Source: Candidatus Binatia bacterium (lineage in GTDB: Bacteria; Desulfobacterota; Binatia; HRBIN30). Taken from it: 64,000 bases of DNA. The notes beneath the pieces were generated by a model that searched no databases, was not told where the DNA came from, and saw nothing but the letters and a program-made list of their open reading frames with translations. Both the position numbers and the translations under genes were made by a program. Where the stretch lies: assembly GCA_026415395.1 (NCBI GenBank), contig JAOAHD010000002.1:310001-374000 (forward strand), written 5' to 3'. Below are positions 27,680 to 37,255 of the stretch, piece by piece (the stretch's first letter is position 1; each line of letters begins with the position of its first letter).

Positions 27680-27718
27680 GCGATGGCGCGCGCTGCCGGT
27701 GAGGAGAGGAAACGTGCG

Positions 27719-30700
27719 ATGTTTCAACGGCTCCATCCGTTGCAGTGCCCGTTAACGGGGACCGTACTTATCGAAGCGAGTGCAGGCACCGGTAAAACGT
27801 ACACGATCGCCAACCTTTATCTCCGCTTGTTGCTGGAGCGGAACTTGACTGTGGAGCAAATCCTCGTGGTGACCTTCACGAATGCCGCGACTGCGGAATT
27901 GCGCGATCGCTTGCGTGCGCGCGTGGCGGCATTGCGGGAGTGTTTGCGGGGTGGTCAGCCGCCGGACCCAGATCTCGCTGCGCTCGCCGCTCAGCGGATG
28001 GCTGCGGGAACGCAGCTCGACGATGAGCGCCGCTTGCAAGCGGCACTCTACGGCTTCGATCTCGCGGCCATCCACACCATTCACTCCTTTTGCCAGCGCA
28101 TGTTGGAGCGACACGCCTTCGAAGGAGGATTGCCGTTCGAGGCCGAACTCGTGGGCACGGCCGCAAATACCGTTTCTCGGCTGGTCCGGGACTTTTGGGT
28201 GCGGCAACTCGAGAGCGCCCCTGCCGAGTTCTTGTGGGACGATGAAGGAAACCCCGGGCCTTTGCAGCGCAGTTTGCCACTTCTCGAACATGCGGTCGGC
28301 TTGGCCCTGCGGTACCCGGACTTGCGCCTGCTCCGCAGGCCGGAGGCGACGGGTGGCTGGCCAGCCTACCGTGCTGCGTTGATTGCTGACGCCATTGCGT
28401 GGGTGCGGCGAGAGCTGGCCCGTGGCAGCCGCTTGCGCCGCGAACGCCGGTTTGACGATTTGTTGCAAGAATTGCGCGATGCATTGCGCTCGCCCGTTCG
28501 AGGCTTGGAATTAGCGGCGGGCATCCGAGAGCAATTCCGTGCTGCCTTGATCGATGAATTCCAAGACACCGACTCGCTGCAGTACGACATTTTCCGCACC
28601 GTTTATGCGGGCCGCAGCGATACCGCGTTGTTCCTGATTGGCGATCCCAAGCAGGCCATTTACGCCTTTCGTGGTGCCGACGTGTTTGCCTATCTCAGCG
28701 GCAAGCAGGATGCCGACCACCACTTTACGCTGGAGCAAAACTGGCGCTCCGTGCCGCAACTCGTCGAGGCAGTGAACCTACTTTTTTCCGAAGAGCGAAC
28801 CGAGCGTCCGTTTCTCCTCGCTGGGATCGAGTACCACCCCATCCAACCTGCGCTGCCAGCGATAAGCGATGCGCATGCCGGCTTGGAAATCCTCTTTGTT
28901 CCGGCTGAAGACGGCAAGGCCATCACGAAAGCTTGGGCGGAGAAGGAGCTTTGCCACATCGTGGCGCAGGACATCTGCAAGTTTGTGCGCAGGGTGCCGG
29001 CCATCGGTCCGCACACCGTGTCGTTCGCCAGTATCGCGGTGCTGTGTCGAACCAACGATCAGGCAGCAGCGATGCAACGCGCGCTCGCCAAGTTGGGCAT
29101 CCCGTCGGCTCTCGAGGGTGAGCTCAGCGTATTCGAGACGTCCGAAGCGATGGAACTCGAGTGCTTGTTGCGCGCCTTGGTGGACCCGGGCGACGGTGCG
29201 GCAGTGCGGGCGGCGCTGGCAACGTCGTTTTTTGGCCTCGATGCCGCCGCCCTGGCGCATTTGCAAACCGCCGATGCGGATTGGGATTCGTGGGTGCAAT
29301 TGTTTTTCGACTGGCACCGAACGTGGCGGGAGCAGGGGTTCATGTCCGCCTTGCAGCAGGTGTTTACGCACGGACAAGCGGCGCGCCGCTTCTTAAAGCT
29401 CGTCGATGGCGAGCGGCGTATGACCAACGTGCGCCATTTGGCGGAATTGCTGCACACGGCCTCCGTGGAGCAACGGCTCTCCCCGGAGCGCGTCCTCGAA
29501 TGGCTGGCGCTCATGCGGCGCGACCCCAGTGCGCGCAGTTCCGATATCGGTCTTGGCGAGGCGGCACAGTTGCGTTTGGAGAGCGACGAGCATGCGGTGA
29601 AGCTGGTCACCATCCACAAGGCCAAGGGGCTGCAATACCCCGTGGTGTATTGCCCGTTTTTGTGGGACTTTCCCAAGCTGCGAGACGAGGAGGCAAAGCT
29701 CCCATGCTTTCACGATCCGAAGACCTTCGAACTGTGCTTGGATTTGCGCGAGCCACCCGACACCAACTCGCTATGGCAGGCTTGGCAGGAACGCAAGGCC
29801 GAAGATGCGCGCTTGCTTTACGTGGCGCTCACACGGGCGCAATACCGCTGCGTGGTTGTGTGGGGCCATTTTGCAGCCGCTCCGGAATCCCCCTTGGCTC
29901 GCTTGCTGCACCCCGGGCGGTTGGCGATGGAGAAAAAGGGGAGCGGAATCCCCAAGATGCAGTGGGCGCCGCAGTTCAAAGACGGAGTGGAAGATTGGAT
30001 GCTCGCTGACCTCCAGAAATTAGCGCGTGCGGCGAACGGGAGCATTCGCGTTCGGCGGTGGCGTGGTTCCCGCTTACAGTCCAGCGCGAAGCCGCAAGCA
30101 AGCGCAGCAGCAGGACTCAAGCCGCGTGTAAGTCGGCGCGCCTTCACAGTGCGCTGGCAAATCGCCAGTTTCTCGGCGCTAACGGAAAAAGCAAAAGGGC
30201 AGAGCTCGGCGGCCGAAGGATTCGATTTTGATGCGGCCTTGGCACCCCGGCCGGTGCCGCTTGCCAAGGTGCCTGACGCTCCACTCTTGCTACGGCTTGC
30301 CGCCGGCGGCCGGATCGGCGAGGCCTTGCACCGGCTGTTTGAAGTGTTGGACTTTGCCAGCCCGCTCGCGGGGCAGATCGACAAGCATGCAGATCTCCTG
30401 CGTCCGCTGGGCGAAGAAGTAGAGCCGGTCACGCTGGCGCAGGCATTGGAGGAGGTGGTGCACACGCCACTGGATCCCTTGGACTTTCGCTTGTGCGACG
30501 TTGCGCGCAGAAAGCGGTTGAACGAGTTGGACTTTTGGTTGCCTGTGTGTACTTCCGGCCAGGCTACGCCGAGTTCGCAACCGGCGGTTGTGCCGCAAAA
30601 GCTCGGGGACGCGTTTGCGCAACACGCTGCCGATCCCTTGCTCCGCGCGTACGGAGAACAGCTCGCCGAGCTCGATTTCCTTCCGTGGGTGGGGTTCCTC

Positions 30701-31054
30701 AAGGGTTACATGGATCTCGTGTTCGAGCACGAGGGGCGCTGGTTTGTGGCAGACTACAAATCGAATTTTCTGGGTCCGACTGCTGCCGATTACTCCCGCG
30801 ATGCGCTCGTTCGCGAAATGCGCGCGCAGCATTACGTGCTCCAGTACCACCTGTACGCCGTCGCCTTGCACCGGATGTTGCAAACCTCCGTGCCCAACTA
30901 CAGCTACGAGCGCGACTTTGGCGGAGTGTTTTACTTATTTGTGCGCGGCATGTCGCCGGCGTATCCACGGGGGAACGGCGTGTACTTCGACCGGCCGCCG
31001 CTTCCCCTCATGGAAAGTTTGCTGCGCGTGTTCACCGGTGAGGACGGAGTGTGA
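27719..31054 (+). CDS. recB: Exodeoxyribonuclease V beta subunit RecB
   Basis: The 3'-5' helicase and nuclease subunit of RecBCD. In 1111 residues: Walker A E-A-S-A-G-T-G-K-T (about 20-28), the UvrD-type T-F-T-N-A-A-T motif, Walker B D-E-F-Q-D-T-D, motif VI Y-V-A-L-T-R-A-Q-Y-R, and the C-terminal nuclease with G-Y-M-D-L-V-F and V-A-D-Y-K-S-N, whose Asp and Lys are the catalytic residues. The ATG at 27719 follows GAGGAGAGGA at good spacing; an in-frame ATG at 27683, only 3 bases past recC, is the alternative. The stop overlaps the GTG of recD. Confidence 0.95.
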   Translation: MFQRLHPLQCPLTGTVLIEASAGTGKTYTIANLYLRLLLERNLTVEQILVVTFTNAATAELRDRLRARVAALRECLRGGQPPDPDLAALAAQRMAAGTQLDDERRLQAALYGFDLAAIHTIHSFCQRMLERHAFEGGLPFEAELVGTAANTVSRLVRDFWVRQLESAPAEFLWDDEGNPGPLQRSLPLLEHAVGLALRYPDLRLLRRPEATGGWPAYRAALIADAIAWVRRELARGSRLRRERRFDDLLQELRDALRSPVRGLELAAGIREQFRAALIDEFQDTDSLQYDIFRTVYAGRSDTALFLIGDPKQAIYAFRGADVFAYLSGKQDADHHFTLEQNWRSVPQLVEAVNLLFSEERTERPFLLAGIEYHPIQPALPAISDAHAGLEILFVPAEDGKAITKAWAEKELCHIVAQDICKFVRRVPAIGPHTVSFASIAVLCRTNDQAAAMQRALAKLGIPSALEGELSVFETSEAMELECLLRALVDPGDGAAVRAALATSFFGLDAAALAHLQTADADWDSWVQLFFDWHRTWREQGFMSALQQVFTHGQAARRFLKLVDGERRMTNVRHLAELLHTASVEQRLSPERVLEWLALMRRDPSARSSDIGLGEAAQLRLESDEHAVKLVTIHKAKGLQYPVVYCPFLWDFPKLRDEEAKLPCFHDPKTFELCLDLREPPDTNSLWQAWQERKAEDARLLYVALTRAQYRCVVVWGHFAAAPESPLARLLHPGRLAMEKKGSGIPKMQWAPQFKDGVEDWMLADLQKLARAANGSIRVRRWRGSRLQSSAKPQASAAAGLKPRVSRRAFTVRWQIASFSALTEKAKGQSSAAEGFDFDAALAPRPVPLAKVPDAPLLLRLAAGGRIGEALHRLFEVLDFASPLAGQIDKHADLLRPLGEEVEPVTLAQALEEVVHTPLDPLDFRLCDVARRKRLNELDFWLPVCTSGQATPSSQPAVVPQKLGDAFAQHAADPLLRAYGEQLAELDFLPWVGFLKGYMDLVFEHEGRWFVADYKSNFLGPTAADYSRDALVREMRAQHYVLQYHLYAVALHRMLQTSVPNYSYERDFGGVFYLFVRGMSPAYPRGNGVYFDRPPLPLMESLLRVFTGEDGV

Positions 31055-32919
31055 ATCGCCGTACGCTCCAAGAGCAAGGCTTGGTGAACGATTTCGATCT
31101 CCACTTGGCGGCCACCCTGGGGCGCGTGGGCGGGGAAGAGCGAGAGGCTGTTCTTGCGACGGTGGCGTTGCTTAGTCGCTCCTTGCGCGACGGACATGTG
31201 TGCTTGAACGTCGCCTCCGCGGGTGCGGCCCTCGGCGTCGGTGCCGGGGATGATGACAGCTTGGCTGCACTCCAGTGGCCGCCTGGTTTGCTCGATGCAC
31301 TGGCAGCAAGCCCGCTGGTGGGCTCCGGCAGCGGCGACACTCCGTTGGTGCTCGACCGCGCCGGCCGTTTATATCTTCGCCGCTATTGGTGGTTCGAGCA
31401 AAATGTGATTGCGGCACTGCGGCAGCGCGCGCAGGTGCCGCCCAAGGAGGTACCGATCGAATTTCTCAAGAACACCCTGCCAGCGTTGTTCGCTGGTTCT
31501 GACACGAAGCCCCCGGCGATCGACTGGCAGCAAGTGGCCACCTTGGTCGCCTTCTTGCGCCCATTGTGCATCGTGTCGGGTGGGCCCGGTACCGGGAAAA
31601 CCTTCATCGTGGCCAACATTTTGAGCTTATTGCTGGCGTGGGCAAGTGCCTGCGGGCAGCGTTTGCCGCGGATTATGTTGCTCGCGCCCACGGGCAAGGC
31701 TGCGGCACGGTTGAGTGAGTCGTTGCAGCGCGCACGCTCTCGCCTGCCTGTGGGCTCGGAGCTCCTGCAAGCCATTCCCACAGAGGCCAGCACGATTCAT
31801 CGCGCGCTGGTGCCGCTCGGTGGCTCGCGCACGCGGTTTCGGTACCACCGGGACAACCCACTCGGGGCGGATGTGGTGGTCGTGGACGAGTGCTCCATGG
31901 TGGATCTTGCCCTCATGGCCCGCTTGCTGGACGCCTTGCCCGCCACCGCGCGGCTTGTGTTGTTGGGCGACGAGTATCAACTGGCGAGTGTGCAGGCAGG
32001 ATCGGTACTCGGCGACCTTTGCAACCGGGGCGAGCCGGCGCGGTTTTCACGCCAGCAGTGGCAGTGGATCGAAGCGGTGCTCGGGGTGCCGCCGCCGAAA
32101 CCAGGGGAGTTGCCCGCTCGAAGTGGCATTCATGATTGCCTGGTGCGGCTGACGCGCAGTTACCGCTTTCGCGAAGACGGCGGCATCGGCGCGGTGGCTG
32201 CGGCGGTGAAGCGGGGTGACGCTGAGCTTGCGTGGGAGGTGCTCATGGCGGGTAAGGACCAGGCGGCGACAGACGTGGCCAGCTTGGGCGAGGCGCCGCT
32301 GCCGTGGAGGCTGTCCGCTGCTCTCGGCCGTGCCGTGCAAAGTGGATTTCAGCAGTACTTTCGCGCGTCCGACCCGGAGGCACGTCTTGCCGCGTTCGAG
32401 CGCTTTCGCGTTTTATGCGCTAACCGCTACGGTCCGTTCGGCATCCATGCCCTGAACACCGCGATCGAGCGCCTGTTGGAGAGCTGTGGGTTAATCGAGT
32501 GCGACAGCCCCTGGTATCTAGGGCGCCCCATTTTGGTGACGGAGAACGACTACCAGATTCGACTGTTCAACGGCGATTGGGGAAGCATCGTGCGCACGGC
32601 CGGAGAGCGCGGGCACCAGCGTATGGCTGCGTTTCGCGATGGACAAGGAAAGTTGCGCTTGATCGCACCCGGGCGCTTGCCGCCGCACGAGACCGCCTTT
32701 GCCATGACCATCCACAAAAGCCAGGGATCAGAGTTCGATGAGGTGGAAGTGGTGCTGCCTCCAAGCGCCTCGCCGTTACTCACCCGAGAACTCGTGTACA
32801 CGGCGCTCACCCGCGCCAGGCACCGCGTGCGTGTACACGCCACGCGCGAGGCATTTGCGCACGCGGTGCGCAGCCGCATCGAGCGGTCTTCGGGGCTCCG
32901 CGACGGCTTGTGGGGGTGA
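31051..32919 (+). CDS. recD: Exodeoxyribonuclease V alpha subunit RecD
   Basis: The 5'-3' helicase of RecBCD, 622 residues. Walker A G-G-P-G-T-G-K-T-F lies at about 177-185, Walker B V-V-D-E-C-S-M-V-D near 278, and the C-terminal motifs A-M-T-I-H-K-S-Q-G-S-E-F and Y-T-A-L-T-R-A-R complete SF1B motifs V and VI. It starts with GTG overlapping the recB TGA by four bases (GTGA), a coupled start. The N-terminal domain is short but typical of RecBCD-type RecD, not RecD2. It is the last gene of the recCBD operon. Confidence 0.94.
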   Translation: MNRRTLQEQGLVNDFDLHLAATLGRVGGEEREAVLATVALLSRSLRDGHVCLNVASAGAALGVGAGDDDSLAALQWPPGLLDALAASPLVGSGSGDTPLVLDRAGRLYLRRYWWFEQNVIAALRQRAQVPPKEVPIEFLKNTLPALFAGSDTKPPAIDWQQVATLVAFLRPLCIVSGGPGTGKTFIVANILSLLLAWASACGQRLPRIMLLAPTGKAAARLSESLQRARSRLPVGSELLQAIPTEASTIHRALVPLGGSRTRFRYHRDNPLGADVVVVDECSMVDLALMARLLDALPATARLVLLGDEYQLASVQAGSVLGDLCNRGEPARFSRQQWQWIEAVLGVPPPKPGELPARSGIHDCLVRLTRSYRFREDGGIGAVAAAVKRGDAELAWEVLMAGKDQAATDVASLGEAPLPWRLSAALGRAVQSGFQQYFRASDPEARLAAFERFRVLCANRYGPFGIHALNTAIERLLESCGLIECDSPWYLGRPILVTENDYQIRLFNGDWGSIVRTAGERGHQRMAAFRDGQGKLRLIAPGRLPPHETAFAMTIHKSQGSEFDEVEVVLPPSASPLLTRELVYTALTRARHRVRVHATREAFAHAVRSRIERSSGLRDGLWG

Positions 32920-33153: not shown

Positions 33154-34163
33154 CTAGGAAAACTTGATTGCGCTCCGAAGGGGATGAGCTGGCAAGTAAG
33201 ACTCGTTCGTCGTGCCTGCTGCGTGGCGCTCACAGCCCGATAACGCTGAGATAACCGCAGAAATAATCTCCTCGATGCTGACCGCTCTGTCGCGATTCTG
33301 ATCTACTCCGTTGCACAGGTCTACAGAGGAGAGGCCGAGCGCGATCGTGACTGCCGTCACAATCTTATCTATCGTCACTTCGCCGTTACTGTTGCAGTCG
33401 CCGTTACAGAGAACGGAGGTGGTAGTTGGCGTGTGTGTGGCTGTAGGTCTTGGGGGCGCCCTCGGAGACGCTGTCGGTGTGGCCTCTTCGGGCGGGGGCG
33501 GGGTTGCTGTGGGCAAAGATTCCCGCGCGAGTGTCGGAGAGAACTGACGCGGTTCCGTCGGAGTAAAAAAGGGCTCGGTGTAGGAAGATTCGGCGCAACA
33601 GTTGCTGTCGGGCTCGGGCTGTTTGATGGCTTGGCGGTCGCGGTTGGACTGTGCGGCGGAGGAGAGGGAAGAGCAACCAAAAGGACCACACTGTAAGTGT
33701 CTGATGCAGCGTAGGCGCCTAGGGTGTCGACCAAACGAAATTGTAACGGTAGACTGCCGGATTGTCCGGCTGGCAGTTGTGCTTGCCAACTTGGGTGAGA
33801 GTGAAGGTTTGGTTCGGTGCCTAGAAGGGCGCGGTCTCCTGAAAGAGTGAGAATCCGACCATTAACGTTGATCGACACCCCAGGGCAGCGGAAACCAGCT
33901 CAAGGTAAACGGGGGGTCCCGGGACGAAGTGGGAACGATCCTGCAACGGCCAGATCTGCGGACAGACCGATGAAGCCCGGGCTGATGGCTGAGTACAGGC
34001 AAAGGGACGGGGTACATAGGGTACGAGAGAGGCGAATTTCGGCTTGCTGTTGGAAGTTGGCAATCTGAAGCTTTCCACCGGCAACTTCGGTCCCAGCAAC
34101 GAGAAAATCCCCCTCGTGGAGCTGAGCGGAAACGATTCCAGCCACGAAAAGTAACAAAGGCAT
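33154..34163 (-). pseudogene. Frameshifted secreted protein with dockerin-like tail (cluster copy A)
   Basis: Reading three frames in turn gives one sensible protein of about 335 residues: a short signal peptide (M-P-L-L-L-F-V-A-G-I-V-S-A), Q-L-H-E-G-D-F-L-V-A-G-T, a beta-rich domain with N-L-H-S-H-P-S-W and L-P-L-Q-F-R-L-V-D, a Pro/Thr linker, and an EF-hand pair C-N-G-D-C-N-S-N-G-E-V-T-I-D ... D-Q-N-R-D-R-A-V-S-I-E-E ending L-S-G-C. The frame breaks at a G6 run on the plus strand (33911-33916), near a C4 run (33878-33881), and at an A6 run (33565-33570). Each is a one-base change in or near a homopolymer, so either the gene is decaying or the sequence has errors. It is related to the genes at 34543 and 35772. 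Confidence 0.7.
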
Positions 34164-34269
34164 GAACGCTCGGATCGAGCGCAGAGACTATCCTCCGGTT
34201 TGTAGAAGCACGGTCCAGCGAGACAGGCAGTAAGGGGGGCACGCGAAGCCCCCTTACACACGGCGACGG

Positions 34270-34542
34270 TTAATGTCGCTCGGCGATGGTTCTCAGGCAA
34301 GGTGAGTACTCGGGCAGAGGGTTCCCGCCTTTACTGGGCCTCGCTTGGAATTGCTCGAGATTACACAGAATCCCTGGGAACGCGGCGCTGAGGGCGGTCT
34401 CTGCTTGACAACGGATCAACGCGATGTGGGCTTGCAGCGTTTCAGGGGTTGGGAAGTCGTTCGACGCGGAGTTTGGAATCACTCGGCCATCTAAAGTGTT
34501 CGGGCCGGGAGTGCCGCATTTTAGCTGGAGCTCTGACACCGT
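34270..34542 (-). pseudogene. Severed C-terminal part of cluster copy B, after an in-frame TAG
   Basis: These 90 codons continue the frame of the gene at 34543-35385 directly past its TAG: T-V-S-E-L-Q-L-K-C-G-T-P-G and on to P-C-L-R-T-I-A-E-R-H and a stop. The cysteine spacing continues the Cys/helix domain of the upstream part, where K-C-G-T-P would be the natural next turn. It is either dead sequence behind a nonsense mutation, a readthrough extension, or a separate GTG-started gene (34539). No ribosome-binding site supports the last option. Confidence 0.55.
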
Positions 34543-35385
34543 CTAGCGTTCCAGATCTTCGAGCCGACCGAGCATAGTCTTGCTGTCGGGGGCGCTGCCG
34601 CTGAGGTTTGTGCACATTCGCTCTGCTGTGGCCAAGGCTGACGACGCTGACGGATCACCGACGTGATCCTTGGCTTTCCACACAGCAACGCGGTCGAAAC
34701 ACCTGCGCAACTCGCGGCTGACTCGCGCATAGTATCGAGGCACGGTCGCGCTCAACGCGCGTTGGCAGCGCAGGCTGATGCTATCGACTCCAGAGGTGGA
34801 GCTGTAGTCCAGTTCGGGTAAGAAGGCGTTGCTCAAGCGCAGCACGTAGGGTTCTGAGGGTTGGTAACCGTTGGAGCTGGTTCCCTCGATGATGCGAAAC
34901 ACAACTAAACCTTCACCCAGCAGGCTTGTCGGGACCGTGCTAAGCAAGATGCGGAAAGGTGCATGCTGATGCAAATCAGACCCGGCTCCCGGTACATCGT
35001 GGGTTCCGATTAGATAAGACCCTGGTGCAGTGATAGGCACGCAGCGTAGTTCAAGGGCGACGCCCGGGCTCACGTACAACACCTCGAGCCCGACTTCCGT
35101 GTTTAATAGGAGTTCGTAAATTTCAGGCGCTTCCGTGTCGGACGGTGCGAAGCCTAGGTCGGTTGCCTCGAACAGATAAGGAAACCCAGTGTATCGTAAT
35201 CCGACAACGTGACGTTCGAAGTCGAAATCAACATTGAGGACCCCGCCGTTCGAGGCAGCTGAACCGATAAGAAGGTCGCCGGTGTGGGCCTGCGCTCGAC
35301 TGACGTCGATGAGAGCGAGAGCAGCGAGGCCCGCCACAGGCAGAATTTTAGCATTCCATTTCAGATGGTTATCTCCTCTGTCCAT
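34543..35385 (-). CDS. Secreted protein of the 33-36 kb cluster (copy B), probably truncated
   Basis: 280 residues with a signal peptide ending S-R-A-Q-A, then H-T-G-D-L-L-I-G-S, F-E-A-T-D-L-G-F-A-P, T-E-V-G-L-E-V-L-Y-V and S-D-L-H-Q-H-A-P-F-R-I-L-L. The same order of motifs appears in copies A and C. From about residue 205 a Cys/helix domain begins (C-Q-R-A-L ... Y-Y-A-R-V-S-R-E-L-R-R-C-F) of a kind common in secreted deltaproteobacterial and Binatota proteins, but it stops at a TAG and continues in frame beyond. The start is uncertain: AGAGGAGA lies inside the open frame, seven bases before a CTG at 35364, which may be the true start. The N-terminal domain resembles HxH-bearing exported proteins such as the all3515-type family; this is a weak match from memory. 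Confidence 0.6.
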   Translation of the reverse strand: MDRGDNHLKWNAKILPVAGLAALALIDVSRAQAHTGDLLIGSAASNGGVLNVDFDFERHVVGLRYTGFPYLFEATDLGFAPSDTEAPEIYELLLNTEVGLEVLYVSPGVALELRCVPITAPGSYLIGTHDVPGAGSDLHQHAPFRILLSTVPTSLLGEGLVVFRIIEGTSSNGYQPSEPYVLRLSNAFLPELDYSSTSGVDSISLRCQRALSATVPRYYARVSRELRRCFDRVAVWKAKDHVGDPSASSALATAERMCTNLSGSAPDSKTMLGRLEDLER

Positions 35386-35696
35386 TCTTCTTGTGGAAGC
35401 CGTGGTAGGCCTTGATGCGCCAATTGGAGTTCCGCCTCAGGTCCTGGTCCGCTGGGCGGAGCTCGGCCAAAGCGCCGCTTCCGTCGGGTCGGAAGCTTGG
35501 CCCGTAGGATGCGACCCTCGACGCGTCTGCGCCTTGGGAGTAGGATGGGCACGACCATCGCGGGCTTCCCCTGAGGAGTTGCAGCGGGAAAACTCAAGCA
35601 CTTCCAGCAGGCGCCGACGTGGTCGGCGATGTGCGCTGCGCGGTGGTGGATTCCTCCAACGAAAGACGCCAGTAGGGCCAGACCAGAAAGAAGCAC
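35361..35696 (-). CDS. Small His-His/CxxC membrane protein (DUF2946-like), copy 2
   Basis: 111 residues from a GTG: a hydrophobic segment L-A-L-L-A-S-F-V-G-G-I followed by H-H-R-A-A-H-I, then D-H-V-G-A-C-W-K-C. This aligns with the gene at 36567-36854 (A-L-L-A-x-x-V-x-G, H-H, A-C-x-x-C), but the C-terminal half is Arg/Pro-rich and less convincing. The frame overlaps the start of copy B by 25 bases. The GTG falls within the hydrophobic segment and no ATG or ribosome-binding site is upstream before a TGA, so the 5' end may be damaged. A metal-binding role is inferred only from His and Cys pairs. Confidence 0.45.
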   Translation of the reverse strand: MLLSGLALLASFVGGIHHRAAHIADHVGACWKCLSFPAATPQGKPAMVVPILLPRRRRVEGRILRAKLPTRRKRRFGRAPPSGPGPEAELQLAHQGLPRLPQEEWTEEITI

Positions 35697-35771
35697 CAGA
35701 GCCTGGATCAGACGCTTGCTGAGCCTTCAAAGTGGGTTTCGCGGTAACCCGCGCAAGTCGGTGGCCCTCCT

Positions 35772-36341
35772 CTACTGTAAGCGGAAGGTGAGTGTGTACG
35801 GTGGCGAAGGTTCGTGTGAAGGATTTTCTGCCAACTCGACCAACCGAAAACTGATGGTCAGGGTGGAAGCGCGCTCGGTGCCAACGAAAAACCACTCGAC
35901 GTGCGCGTGGAGACTGCCCGACTCGCCGAGCGGGATTCGATCTCCCGGAGCCGCGGCGACCGCCTCGTCAGATTTAACTTGTATGCCTTGATCATTGGAG
36001 ACAATTTCCAAGGCGAGAGGGACCGGCTTTGTCAGTGGCTCGTATCCCCCGCTGCGCAGTTCAAGGTCGGCGAAGCCTGGTTCGGAAGCAGTACACAAGT
36101 GGAAGTCGCCAAGTTGCTGGCACGGTAAGGAAATTTCAACGTCGAAGTTAAACCAGGCCGCGAGCTGTTTGGCGTTGACTTGGCTTGACCCAACAAGAAT
36201 ATCGACGTGGGGAGCGGGTTCCTTAAAGCCCGGCGGCTCTTCTGGTCCACAACCGCATATCGTCAACAGCCAGAACGACACCGCGGTGAGTGCGACCAAA
36301 GACTTTGACAAACCTTTGTGATTTTGCAGTGTTTGAACCAT
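35772..36341 (-). CDS. Lipoprotein of the 33-36 kb cluster (copy C)
   Basis: 189 residues with signal peptide and lipobox L-T-I-C-G-C (Cys at about 31). The mature part starts P-H-V-D-I-L-V-G-S-S and carries S-E-P-G-F-A-D-L-E-L, V-P-L-A-L-E-I-V-S-N-D-Q-G-I-Q-V and G-S-L-H-A-H-V-E-W, ending S-P-P-Y-T-L-T-F-R-L. It shares motif order with copies A and B but lacks a linker and extra domains, so it is the minimal form of the family and the only intact one. GGGGGAG precedes the ATG at 36341. Probably anchored in the outer or inner membrane; function unknown. Confidence 0.65.
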   Translation of the reverse strand: MVQTLQNHKGLSKSLVALTAVSFWLLTICGCGPEEPPGFKEPAPHVDILVGSSQVNAKQLAAWFNFDVEISLPCQQLGDFHLCTASEPGFADLELRSGGYEPLTKPVPLALEIVSNDQGIQVKSDEAVAAAPGDRIPLGESGSLHAHVEWFFVGTERASTLTISFRLVELAENPSHEPSPPYTLTFRLQ

Positions 36342-36566
36342 TGTAGCGTTCTCCCCCGTCCCCAGAGGGACGTCTCGATGTTTGAGCCCTGATCCGAACC
36401 CTTTCAGGGCAGCCGCGGCTGGAGGAACGGAGCCTCCAGCAAACCGCGTGAGCGGCATACGCGATGTTTGCTCAGCGGCGTAGGCGACGTTTGCGGGGAT
36501 GCGGGTGCGCCGCTGAAAAACGGCGTACCCGCTGAGGCCGGATCGTCTCTAAACGTCGCGCGAACG
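36342..36566 (-). other. Hairpin-rich spacer with a direct repeat
   Basis: Read on the minus strand, five hairpins follow each other: CTCAGCGG/CCGCTGAG enclosing GGGT-CGCCG/CGGCG-ACCC; AGCAAAC/GTTTGCT enclosing GCGT/ACGC; CTGGAGG/CCTCCAG; CCCTGA/TCAGGG; and GTCCC/GGGAC just before the ribosome-binding site of copy C. GCAAACGTCGCCTACGCCGC and GCAAACATCGCGTATGCCGC are an imperfect direct repeat. No riboswitch class fits that I can recognise. It could be a structured leader or a small repeat element. Confidence 0.4.
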
Positions 36567-36854
36567 CTAGATCACTGGTGGGCTCCACCCGGAGACGGAC
36601 GCAACGCCACGAGCCGGAACCGGATAGGACTTGGCCGGCAGTAAGCGGTCGATCGGTACCGTAGTAGGGGCCCCGCAATCGCTACTTTGCTCCAACAAGG
36701 GAACAGCGGCGGCCACACTACAGGCAATGCACGCATCGGGGTCGGCGGAGAGTCCGGTGGAGTGATGCGCGTGCCCCCTTACGAGCCCTGCGAGCAACGC
36801 AGCGCAAATCACCACCGGCGCTACCCAGCGAACGCAACAAGGCTTTGCTCGCAT
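36567..36854 (-). CDS. Small His-His/CxxC membrane protein (DUF2946-like), copy 1
   Basis: 95 residues: M-R-A-K-P-C-C then a hydrophobic segment A-P-V-V-I-C-A-A-L-L-A-G-L-V, then H-A-H-H-S and D-A-C-I-A-C-S, then a Pro/Ala-rich tail. Small proteins of one membrane segment followed by His pairs and CxxC are known as DUF2946 and often lie near metal transport genes; no transporter is seen here. It is the first gene of the cluster. No clear ribosome-binding site precedes the ATG at 36854, and a candidate promoter lies very close upstream. Confidence 0.55.
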   Translation of the reverse strand: MRAKPCCVRWVAPVVICAALLAGLVRGHAHHSTGLSADPDACIACSVAAAVPLLEQSSDCGAPTTVPIDRLLPAKSYPVPARGVASVSGWSPPVI

Positions 36855-37255
36855 AAGATGCACAGCGGTAGCTGCCACTAATGAGGGCGCGAGCACGTGT
36901 CAAGAAGCAAAGCGCAGTTCAGCACTGGAACACGCTTTTGGGGACTGAGGTGCTCGCACCCTCGACTGCCTGTCCTGCTGATAGCCAGGTAACAGCGAGG
37001 GCAGTCTACGTTCTCTTGCCGTAAGTTGATGCAGAGGAGCAGCCTCATGAACGAGAGCACAGAACAGAGGCTTGTCTGGCTTGGATGGCCTTCGGTGAGA
37101 GCGAACGAAGTCCCAGCACAAAATTTCGGGTACGAGGTGACGGAACTTTGGGCCAGAGATTAGTTGCTTGGCCCCGCCCGGTTGACACTGGCGTGCGGCC
37201 GGTGCGAGCTTGCCGGAACTTGCGTGGCAACTTGAACCACAGAAGGAGAAGCAGG
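36855..37255. other. Divergent gap between the 33-36 kb cluster and the PLP-lyase operon
   Basis: About 400 bases with no supported gene. It holds the candidate promoter for the minus-strand cluster at 36875-36903. Short open frames on both strands lack start signals. I found no palindrome of Zur or Fur type. Confidence 0.45.
36875..36903 (-). promoter_or_regulatory. Candidate promoter of the 33-36 kb cluster
   Basis: On the minus strand TTGACA (36903-36898) is a perfect -35 box, and 17 bases later TAGTGG (36880-36875) is a poor -10. If used, the leader to the ATG at 36854 would be only about 14 bases. Confidence 0.35.

Follow-up and report, generated by a model that had tools for sequence, protein, structure and literature searches.

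In Bordetella pertussis, the DUF2946 protein CruR (Bp2923) is encoded by a small exported open reading frame (ORF) at the head of a metal operon and is described as a copper sensor, with a rut site within the C-over-G region of its leader (PMC9426467). CutF of Rhodobacter capsulatus is likewise reported to be a nascent exported DUF2946-like sensor of copper with a Cys motif and a proline-rich end, which acts on the next gene (PMC9973294). According to the CruR authors, no riboswitch is described for copper or zinc, and protein leaders may fill the copper gap (PMC9426467). A third described system, the secreted Zur-linked protein ZepA (All3515, NCBIfam NF040463), is an Ig-like sandwich reported to serve zinc provision, with 1.48 zinc per monomer and an N-terminal zinc triad formed by His80, 89 and 91 of the precursor (PMC10957091). 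Here we analyze a locus at positions 33,154-36,854 of a 64,000-nucleotide stretch of contig JAOAHD010000002.1 (the window), which is part of the 3.69-Mb genome (25 contigs) of a Candidatus Binatia bacterium. All features of the locus lie on the minus strand, in the order D1, C, D2, B and A, where D1 and D2 are CruR-like leader frames, and C, B and A belong to an exported family with two conserved histidines one residue apart (HxH). We consider it probable, at roughly 60%, that this is a zinc-acquisition operon of Binatia composed of CruR/CutF-type leaders and zinc-binding exported proteins.

An initial annotation of the window had proposed that C (35772..36341), B (34543..35385) and A (33154..34163) carry the same secreted domain. 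Indeed, the open frames of C and B and the pieces of A match one common profile, and a search of the own genome with C returned five places, namely C, A, B and one each on contigs C20 and C3. In the alignment of these five copies, which includes only the second half of A, residues G132, G138, H144, H146, R165, S178 and Y181 (C numbering) are invariant. With the profile of the five copies, family members were detected in 17 of 58 genomes, the own one among them, often in tandem. Conservation of the HxH motif, also expected by the initial annotation, was borne out in 59 distinct domains from the fetched regions: the first His is kept in 57 and the second in 51, its position being occupied by Asp in several other members, and one Ser is present in all 59. 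Pfam contains no family of note for C, B or the A pieces, and for 42 members only scattered single matches were obtained, the best of them to Big_3_5 in one member (E = 0.0006). AlphaFold2 predicted a confident sandwich for C (mean pLDDT 92) and, for the domain of B together with its tail (pLDDT 83), a similar strand order followed by helices, so that B and C are predicted to share a fold rather than to differ in it. Matches to known structures are generic. A sequence search of the PDB gave a best E-value of 0.11; the best Foldseek match was the PorA N-terminal domain (6kjk; E = 1e-4, TM 0.43), with two matches at E = 0.001, and VIA-align returned unrelated sandwiches with Z up to 7.8. A plasmid search with C gave no match at E = 1. 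Taken together, C, B and A are versions of a single predicted sandwich domain that is exported and in which HxH is conserved. A histidine brace formed by the mature N-terminal His, as seen in B, was considered and dropped, because this residue is replaced in many members (by eye) and C is a lipoprotein.

The same cassette is found in the window and in four related genomes, G001 (region L038), G003 (L041), G025 (L052) and G045 (L045). It starts with C, which is bare or has a short tail, continues with B, which has a Cys-helix tail, and ends with A, which has a PT-rich linker and in some cases EF/dockerin-like loops. C and several of its relatives are lipoproteins by eye; a simple lipobox pattern was scanned only upstream of the domain and therefore missed them. 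Within the window, C consists of the domain with its lipobox and no attached part. To relate the copies, we used a tree of 36 domains, excluding the broken A of the window, in which 32 domains were labelled as C, B or A type from their tails and position. Each type falls on one side of a branch, with support of 98/94 for B, 90/76 for A and only 71/61 for C. The labels need two changes on the tree, which is the minimum and was equally low in none of 200 shuffles. Judged from these sequences, the three types C, B and A diverged long ago within one family. An unbroken counterpart of A is present in L038, from the same genus; its tail matches Pfam Dockerin_1 (E = 0.0034) and EF-hand, both under the cut-off.

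The family also shows variation outside this cassette. C-type members at L052:6226-6726, L105:3366-3890, L106:4609-4947 and L049:14018-14596 end in His/Asp-rich tails, a kind of tail common in metal-binding proteins. Other arrangements of family genes occur in L044, L047 and L049, and a ZnuD-like receptor directly precedes family genes, with no leader match, at L049:10648-13409 and L051:5374-8086.

The initial annotation had further placed two small proteins with a His pair and CxxC between the family copies. Both exist, and D2 (35361..35726, first listed start GTG 35696) does lie between C and B, its last 25 bases overlapping the beginning of B, whereas D1 (36567..36854, 95 residues from ATG 36854) is located upstream of C. 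D1 is made up of a hydrophobic segment, HAHH, CIAC, 44 residues and WSPP, followed by two residues and the stop; D2 contains HHRAAH, CWKC, 44 residues and RAPP, followed by 30 residues. When a model was built from 15 leaders of related genomes, with D1 and D2 excluded, it detected both, D2 with E = 8.5e-9 and D1 with E = 0.0027 (E-values from later models have both among the model members). A search for CxxC-xPP with spacing of 40-48 allowed produced 21 matches in the window and the 20 first-fetched family regions; 16 are leader-like, every one spaced 43-45, and five (L046, L047:1361, L048, L050 and L057) were judged by look to be non-leaders. Using profile A4, made of 17 leaders including D1 and D2, we obtained matches in 26 of 58 genomes at E = 0.01, with 39 places reaching E = 1e-5; six weaker places (E = 0.0019-0.0098) are left out of those looked at, and seven weak matches to the 15-leader model (E = 0.22-0.75) were dropped.

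For 40 leaders from the 58 genomes, the spacing between CxxC and [RW]xPP is 44 residues in 29, 43 in seven and 45 in two, the two leaders lacking the pattern being L103, with CxC, and the truncated L105:2978. The xPP ends are RAPP, RGPP, RSPP or WSPP; where a leader has several xPP, the one nearest to 44 was chosen, as in L038:6140 with RGPP at 44 and LAPP at 38. Although linker length is kept, linker sequence hardly is, ungapped identity among the 29 leaders with spacing of 44 being 14% versus 10% when shuffled. Only 2-15 residues follow xPP in 37 of 38 leaders, the exception being D2. At least two His are found within 28 residues before CxxC in 55 of 58 leaders. Three residues separate the His in 12 of 22 leaders of the HxH family and in 6 of 9 ZnuD-type leaders, and one residue in 15 of 16 Znu leaders. 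Pfam gave no match for D1 and D2; of its families, DUF2946 matches the largest number of leaders, 10 of 17 with a threshold of E = 5 and a best E-value of 0.0018. The earlier remark that the small proteins are DUF2946-like was right. Because the linker is conserved in length and hardly in sequence, and because three unrelated kinds of genes follow the leaders, as published for CruR, the putative leaders D1 and D2 read better as CruR/CutF-type (DUF2946) upstream ORFs than as the metal-handling membrane partners originally envisaged.

In relatives, uptake genes of zinc type are found behind the leaders. The next recognized same-strand gene of the 40 leaders belongs to the HxH family in 18 cases (two of them via a second leader), to an array of an outer-membrane-like protein (OMP), ZnuA and ZnuC in 12, and is a TonB receptor in eight, two remaining unassigned. 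ZnuB is also present in 10 of the 12 OMP-ZnuA-ZnuC places, the other two stretches ending sooner, and of the TonB receptors six are similar to the ZnuD-like receptor of L052 and two to that of L107. Downstream genes were recognized by similarity to twelve example proteins; therefore, other kinds of genes go unnamed. ZnuD is the best profile for the receptors of L052 (E = 1.9e-93), L105, L045 and L095 and for the L049 receptor preceding family genes; AztC/ZnuA is the best profile in L041, L089, L094 and L103, AztB in L099, ZupT (ZIP) in L091 and ZigA in L095. Pfam cut-offs are passed by ZnuA, Zip, FUR, ArsR-type HTH, MerC and TonB receptor. In G003, the cassette is back to back with leader-OMP-ZnuA-ZnuC, and in G025, G039 and G045 family genes are back to back with FUR-leader-receptor. 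Thus, a zinc/FUR-family neighborhood (FUR, ZnuD-like receptor or ZnuA-ZnuC) adjoins the cassette or the family in these four genomes, and not in the window. The suggestion of metal handling in the initial annotation is in line with these zinc-type uptake genes beside the family. As with CruR, these leaders head putative metal operons, to which D2 and other internal leaders are an exception.

Among 148 genomes of the class, 32 have a leader at E = 1e-6, and an unseen set of 16 places in 14 genomes, fetched as 15 regions, largely repeats the earlier pattern of downstream genes. Its 19 leader matches have spacing of 44 in 12, 45 in four, 43 in two and 47 in one (18 of 19 at 43-45), and the next gene is a family member in four, ZnuD-like in three, OMP/Znu in four, another TonB receptor in four, an ABC ATPase in two and unassigned in two. 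The order leader-family-leader-family-family recurs in G393 of this set. Since G399 is close to G025, the unseen genomes are not all independent.

Several of the neighboring genes deserve description in their own right. The OMP between leader and ZnuA has about 460-540 residues and a coiled start (L041:8668-10284, L091:4589-5962, L094:1500-2993 and L099:3771-5273); no Pfam or NCBIfam family scores over cut-off for it, weak coiled-coil matches lying under the cut-off, and it is a candidate zinc porin. Leaders also head a second type of TonB receptor in L104, L107, L118, L119, L121 and L126. In L107 this receptor carries a carboxypeptidase-regulatory domain, and the genes behind it resemble TonB/ExbB/ExbD by eye. 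In L117 and L122 the leader is followed by an ABC ATPase with only distant likeness to ZnuC.

Expression signals were considered upstream of the leaders and in the gaps behind them. The predicted promoter of D1 comprises a -35 box TTGACA (36898..36903; score 9.2, with 95% background of 9.0 from 1000 random stretches) and, 17 bases past it, a weak -10 box TAGTGG (36875..36880). As the -35 box stands just upstream of the GTG given in the ORF list, ATG 36854 is the more likely start of D1. The score exceeds the 95% background for 19 of 32 first leaders, with one more tie, and for none of six internal leaders (5.8-8.7), D2 scoring 8.7. CTTGACA occurs in 11 of the 32 upstream regions of first leaders, with 0.34 expected (either strand). 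The 225-nucleotide gap between D1 and C (36342-36566), with a predicted hairpin at 36501..36532, folds better than shuffles (z = -2.3, 4 of 200 shuffles equally good); across leaders, the mean z of the following RNA is -0.95 (39 leaders) versus -0.22 (58 controls), which is too weak to rely on. The C-over-G skew is 0.108 in leaders versus 0.005 in other genes, with little in D2 (0.061) and none in D1 (-0.011). No Zur palindrome is shared by all 32 upstream regions. In six of them (L045, L052, L095, L099, L101 and L105), four of which precede ZnuD-like receptors, ATTGCAA/TTGCAAT is found some 55-85 bases ahead of the point where the leader model begins, and TGAAAATGATTATCA is present upstream of the leader at L097. 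Both are possible FUR-family operators; neither type of site was found before D1.

In this genome the second half of the cassette seems to have deteriorated. The initial annotation had counted three gene copies, and two of them, C and B, are open frames; A is not one gene, as an in-frame TGA (33900-33902) interrupts its domain, whose pieces 33912-34163 and 33633-33884 share a frame, further frame changes follow, and the PT-rich linker and dockerin/EF-like tail sit in a different frame from the domain. B stops early at a TAG, and the same frame runs on (34270..34542) with sequence that is found in aligned B orthologs and resembles their C-terminal end. D2 has no ATG, and the 30 residues past its RAPP run into the start of B. 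In D1, WSPP replaces RxPP, the Arg being lost. The long frames adjoining A, 27683-31054 and 31051-32919 (RecB- and RecD-like by eye), are open; therefore, real decay seems likelier than poor sequence. The D2-B-A half thus looks decayed and D1 imperfect, and D1-C may still be working.

The proposed operon would function as follows. D1, C, D2, B and A would probably be read from one promoter. The lipid-anchored C, the helix-tailed B and A with its PT-linker and dockerin-like tail would bind zinc, most likely via HxH, and help capture it outside the inner membrane, as suggested by ZepA. The His pair and CxxC of D1 and D2, a possible C2H2 zinc site, would sense the metal during translation and export of the leader, and the ribosome would be arrested by the RxPP, which lies about 44 residues beyond CxxC. 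By analogy with CruR, from which we infer both the metal-relieved arrest and the Rho-dependent stop, the arrest in the absence of metal would shield the RNA from Rho, so that downstream genes are made, and in the presence of metal it would be relieved and transcription would stop. Zinc is the presumed metal because of the zinc-type context and the His pair. Since leaders stand before zinc-uptake genes in relatives, a leader may switch zinc uptake during its own synthesis, and D2 inside the operon might provide another checkpoint ahead of B and A. A bolder generalization, to which we would give slightly less than an even chance, is that Binatia control zinc uptake by zinc-sensing arrest peptides: in CruR-like leaders, a C2H2 zinc site would have arisen from the copper CXXC through the added His pair, the same kind of leader would stand at the head of three zinc modules unrelated to one another (ZnuD-like receptor, OMP-ZnuABC and HxH exoproteins), and the second copy inside the exoprotein operon would make a two-step switch.

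A number of observations weigh against the assignment to zinc and to CruR-type leaders. The zinc names of the neighbors are those of best profiles, and the NCBIfam cut-off is reached by none; manganese-binding proteins come second in the AztC group, almost level in L103 (84.3 versus 83.7 bits). In L052, L045 and L105, the FUR proteins best match iron Fur or PerR profiles, and therefore no Zur assignment is made. A leader stands beside the family in only 10 of the 17 genomes that have it, and 13 of the 20 first-fetched family regions have no leader, seven having one. The own genome encodes ZnuA but has no leader match beyond D1 and D2 and no ZnuD at E = 1e-20. Leaders at the other type of TonB receptor (six places) and at ABC ATPases (two places) have no zinc assignment. 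None of the 17 leaders reaches the DUF2946 (PF11162) gathering score, nor does any own-genome match pass the cut-off, and the C-over-G skew may be a by-product of a Pro/Ala/His-rich peptide. Finally, A and B are broken, both leaders of the window are imperfect in the respects given above, including the absent skew of D1, and the described models, CruR and CutF, respond to copper.

The last point leads to an alternative in which copper is the metal concerned, sensed by the leaders and bound extracellularly by the HxH proteins. CruR and CutF do sense copper (PMC9426467, PMC9973294), with CxxC as their copper motif. HxH is a motif capable of binding copper as well. We nevertheless regard this explanation as unlikely, given the extra His pair of the leaders and the zinc-type best profiles of the genes behind them in relatives; although copper families were not sought as such, 38 of the 40 genes that come next were assigned otherwise. 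In line with the initial annotation, the small proteins could also work in their mature form as metal chaperones of the membrane or periplasm alongside the HxH proteins, rather than as leaders, a view that draws on their hydrophobic segment and four metal-ligand residues; a linker kept in length and hardly in sequence, the few residues after xPP and the three unrelated gene kinds behind the leaders make it distinctly improbable.

The initial annotation had also pointed to all3515, and the HxH proteins could be true ZepA orthologs. The comparison was apt insofar as all3515_fam (NF040463) is the top NCBIfam match of C (E = 0.0007) and, at E = 1, has matches in 6 of 42 members, a number that no other family reaches; moreover, C and B are predicted beta-rich sandwiches, exported and in a FUR/zinc-type context in relatives. 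Yet C scores 19.5 bits where the curated cut-off is 75, and the match spans positions 134-222 of 227, the C-terminal part, whereas the ZepA triad is N-terminal. The defining features also fail, neither the triad (H-X2-9-H-F/Y-H) nor PEP-CTERM (sought with the simple pattern [VLI]PEP within the final 45 residues of each fetched frame) being found in any of the 59 domains. Orthology is therefore very unlikely. At E = 0.001, a search with NF040463 matched none of 297 genomes from the phylum; 14 control genomes were equally silent, so it says nothing on absence; C itself scored E = 0.0034 in the own-genome search. That the cluster is functionless debris in this genome is suggested by the broken A and B and the altered D1 and D2; with C open and cassettes retained in G001, G003, G025, G045 and, by order, G393, we consider this improbable too, about as much so as the chaperone explanation.

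If correct, the link between this leader family and zinc uptake would extend the idea of protein leaders from copper to zinc, dozens of natural leaders with differing His spacing would be usable for testing it, and a function would be suggested for an exported family that has no Pfam entry. No zinc-responsive CruR-type leader was found in the full-text literature searched, most subscription papers and preprints being outside its scope. The nearest printed hint of zinc is Caulobacter CC2720, a DUF2946 gene with a predicted site in the Zur regulon table, where two DUF2946 genes are lowered and the one with the predicted site lies beside czr RND genes (PMC4176598). It differs from the leaders described here in being lowered and adjacent to efflux genes, and the table entries propose no leader function (PMC4176598).

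Of the three systems introduced at the outset, ZepA resembles the HxH family as a secreted sandwich protein linked to zinc, to which C matches weakly (PMC10957091). The HxH family differs in that neither triad nor PEP-CTERM was found in its domains, in comprising several types with other tails, and in having CruR-like ORFs ahead of it in some of the genomes. CutF shares with D1 and D2 the DUF2946-like, exported, Cys- and proline-containing layout, but in its case copper favors production of CutO via a stem-loop (PMC9973294). The CutF authors noted that His-containing clusters exist and considered it possible that other metals (Ni, Co) are sensed by some (PMC9973294); "zinc", "Zur" and "ZnuA" do not occur in the main text of that report. 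The closest counterpart is CruR. It, too, is a small exported ORF heading a metal operon, in which CXXC is followed after 45 residues by RAPP near the C-terminus, as compared with 43-45 residues in 38 of 40 leaders here; it is separated from the next gene by a long gap (162 nucleotides, versus 225 between D1 and C) and often precedes TonB receptors (PMC9426467). In contrast to CruR, which senses copper, with zinc moderately affecting bfrG mRNA (PMC9426467), the leaders of Binatia miss the DUF2946 gathering score and are followed by zinc-type genes. They also occur inside an operon, D2 even overlapping B, and have a His pair before CxxC, the word histidine being absent from the CruR main text (PMC9426467).

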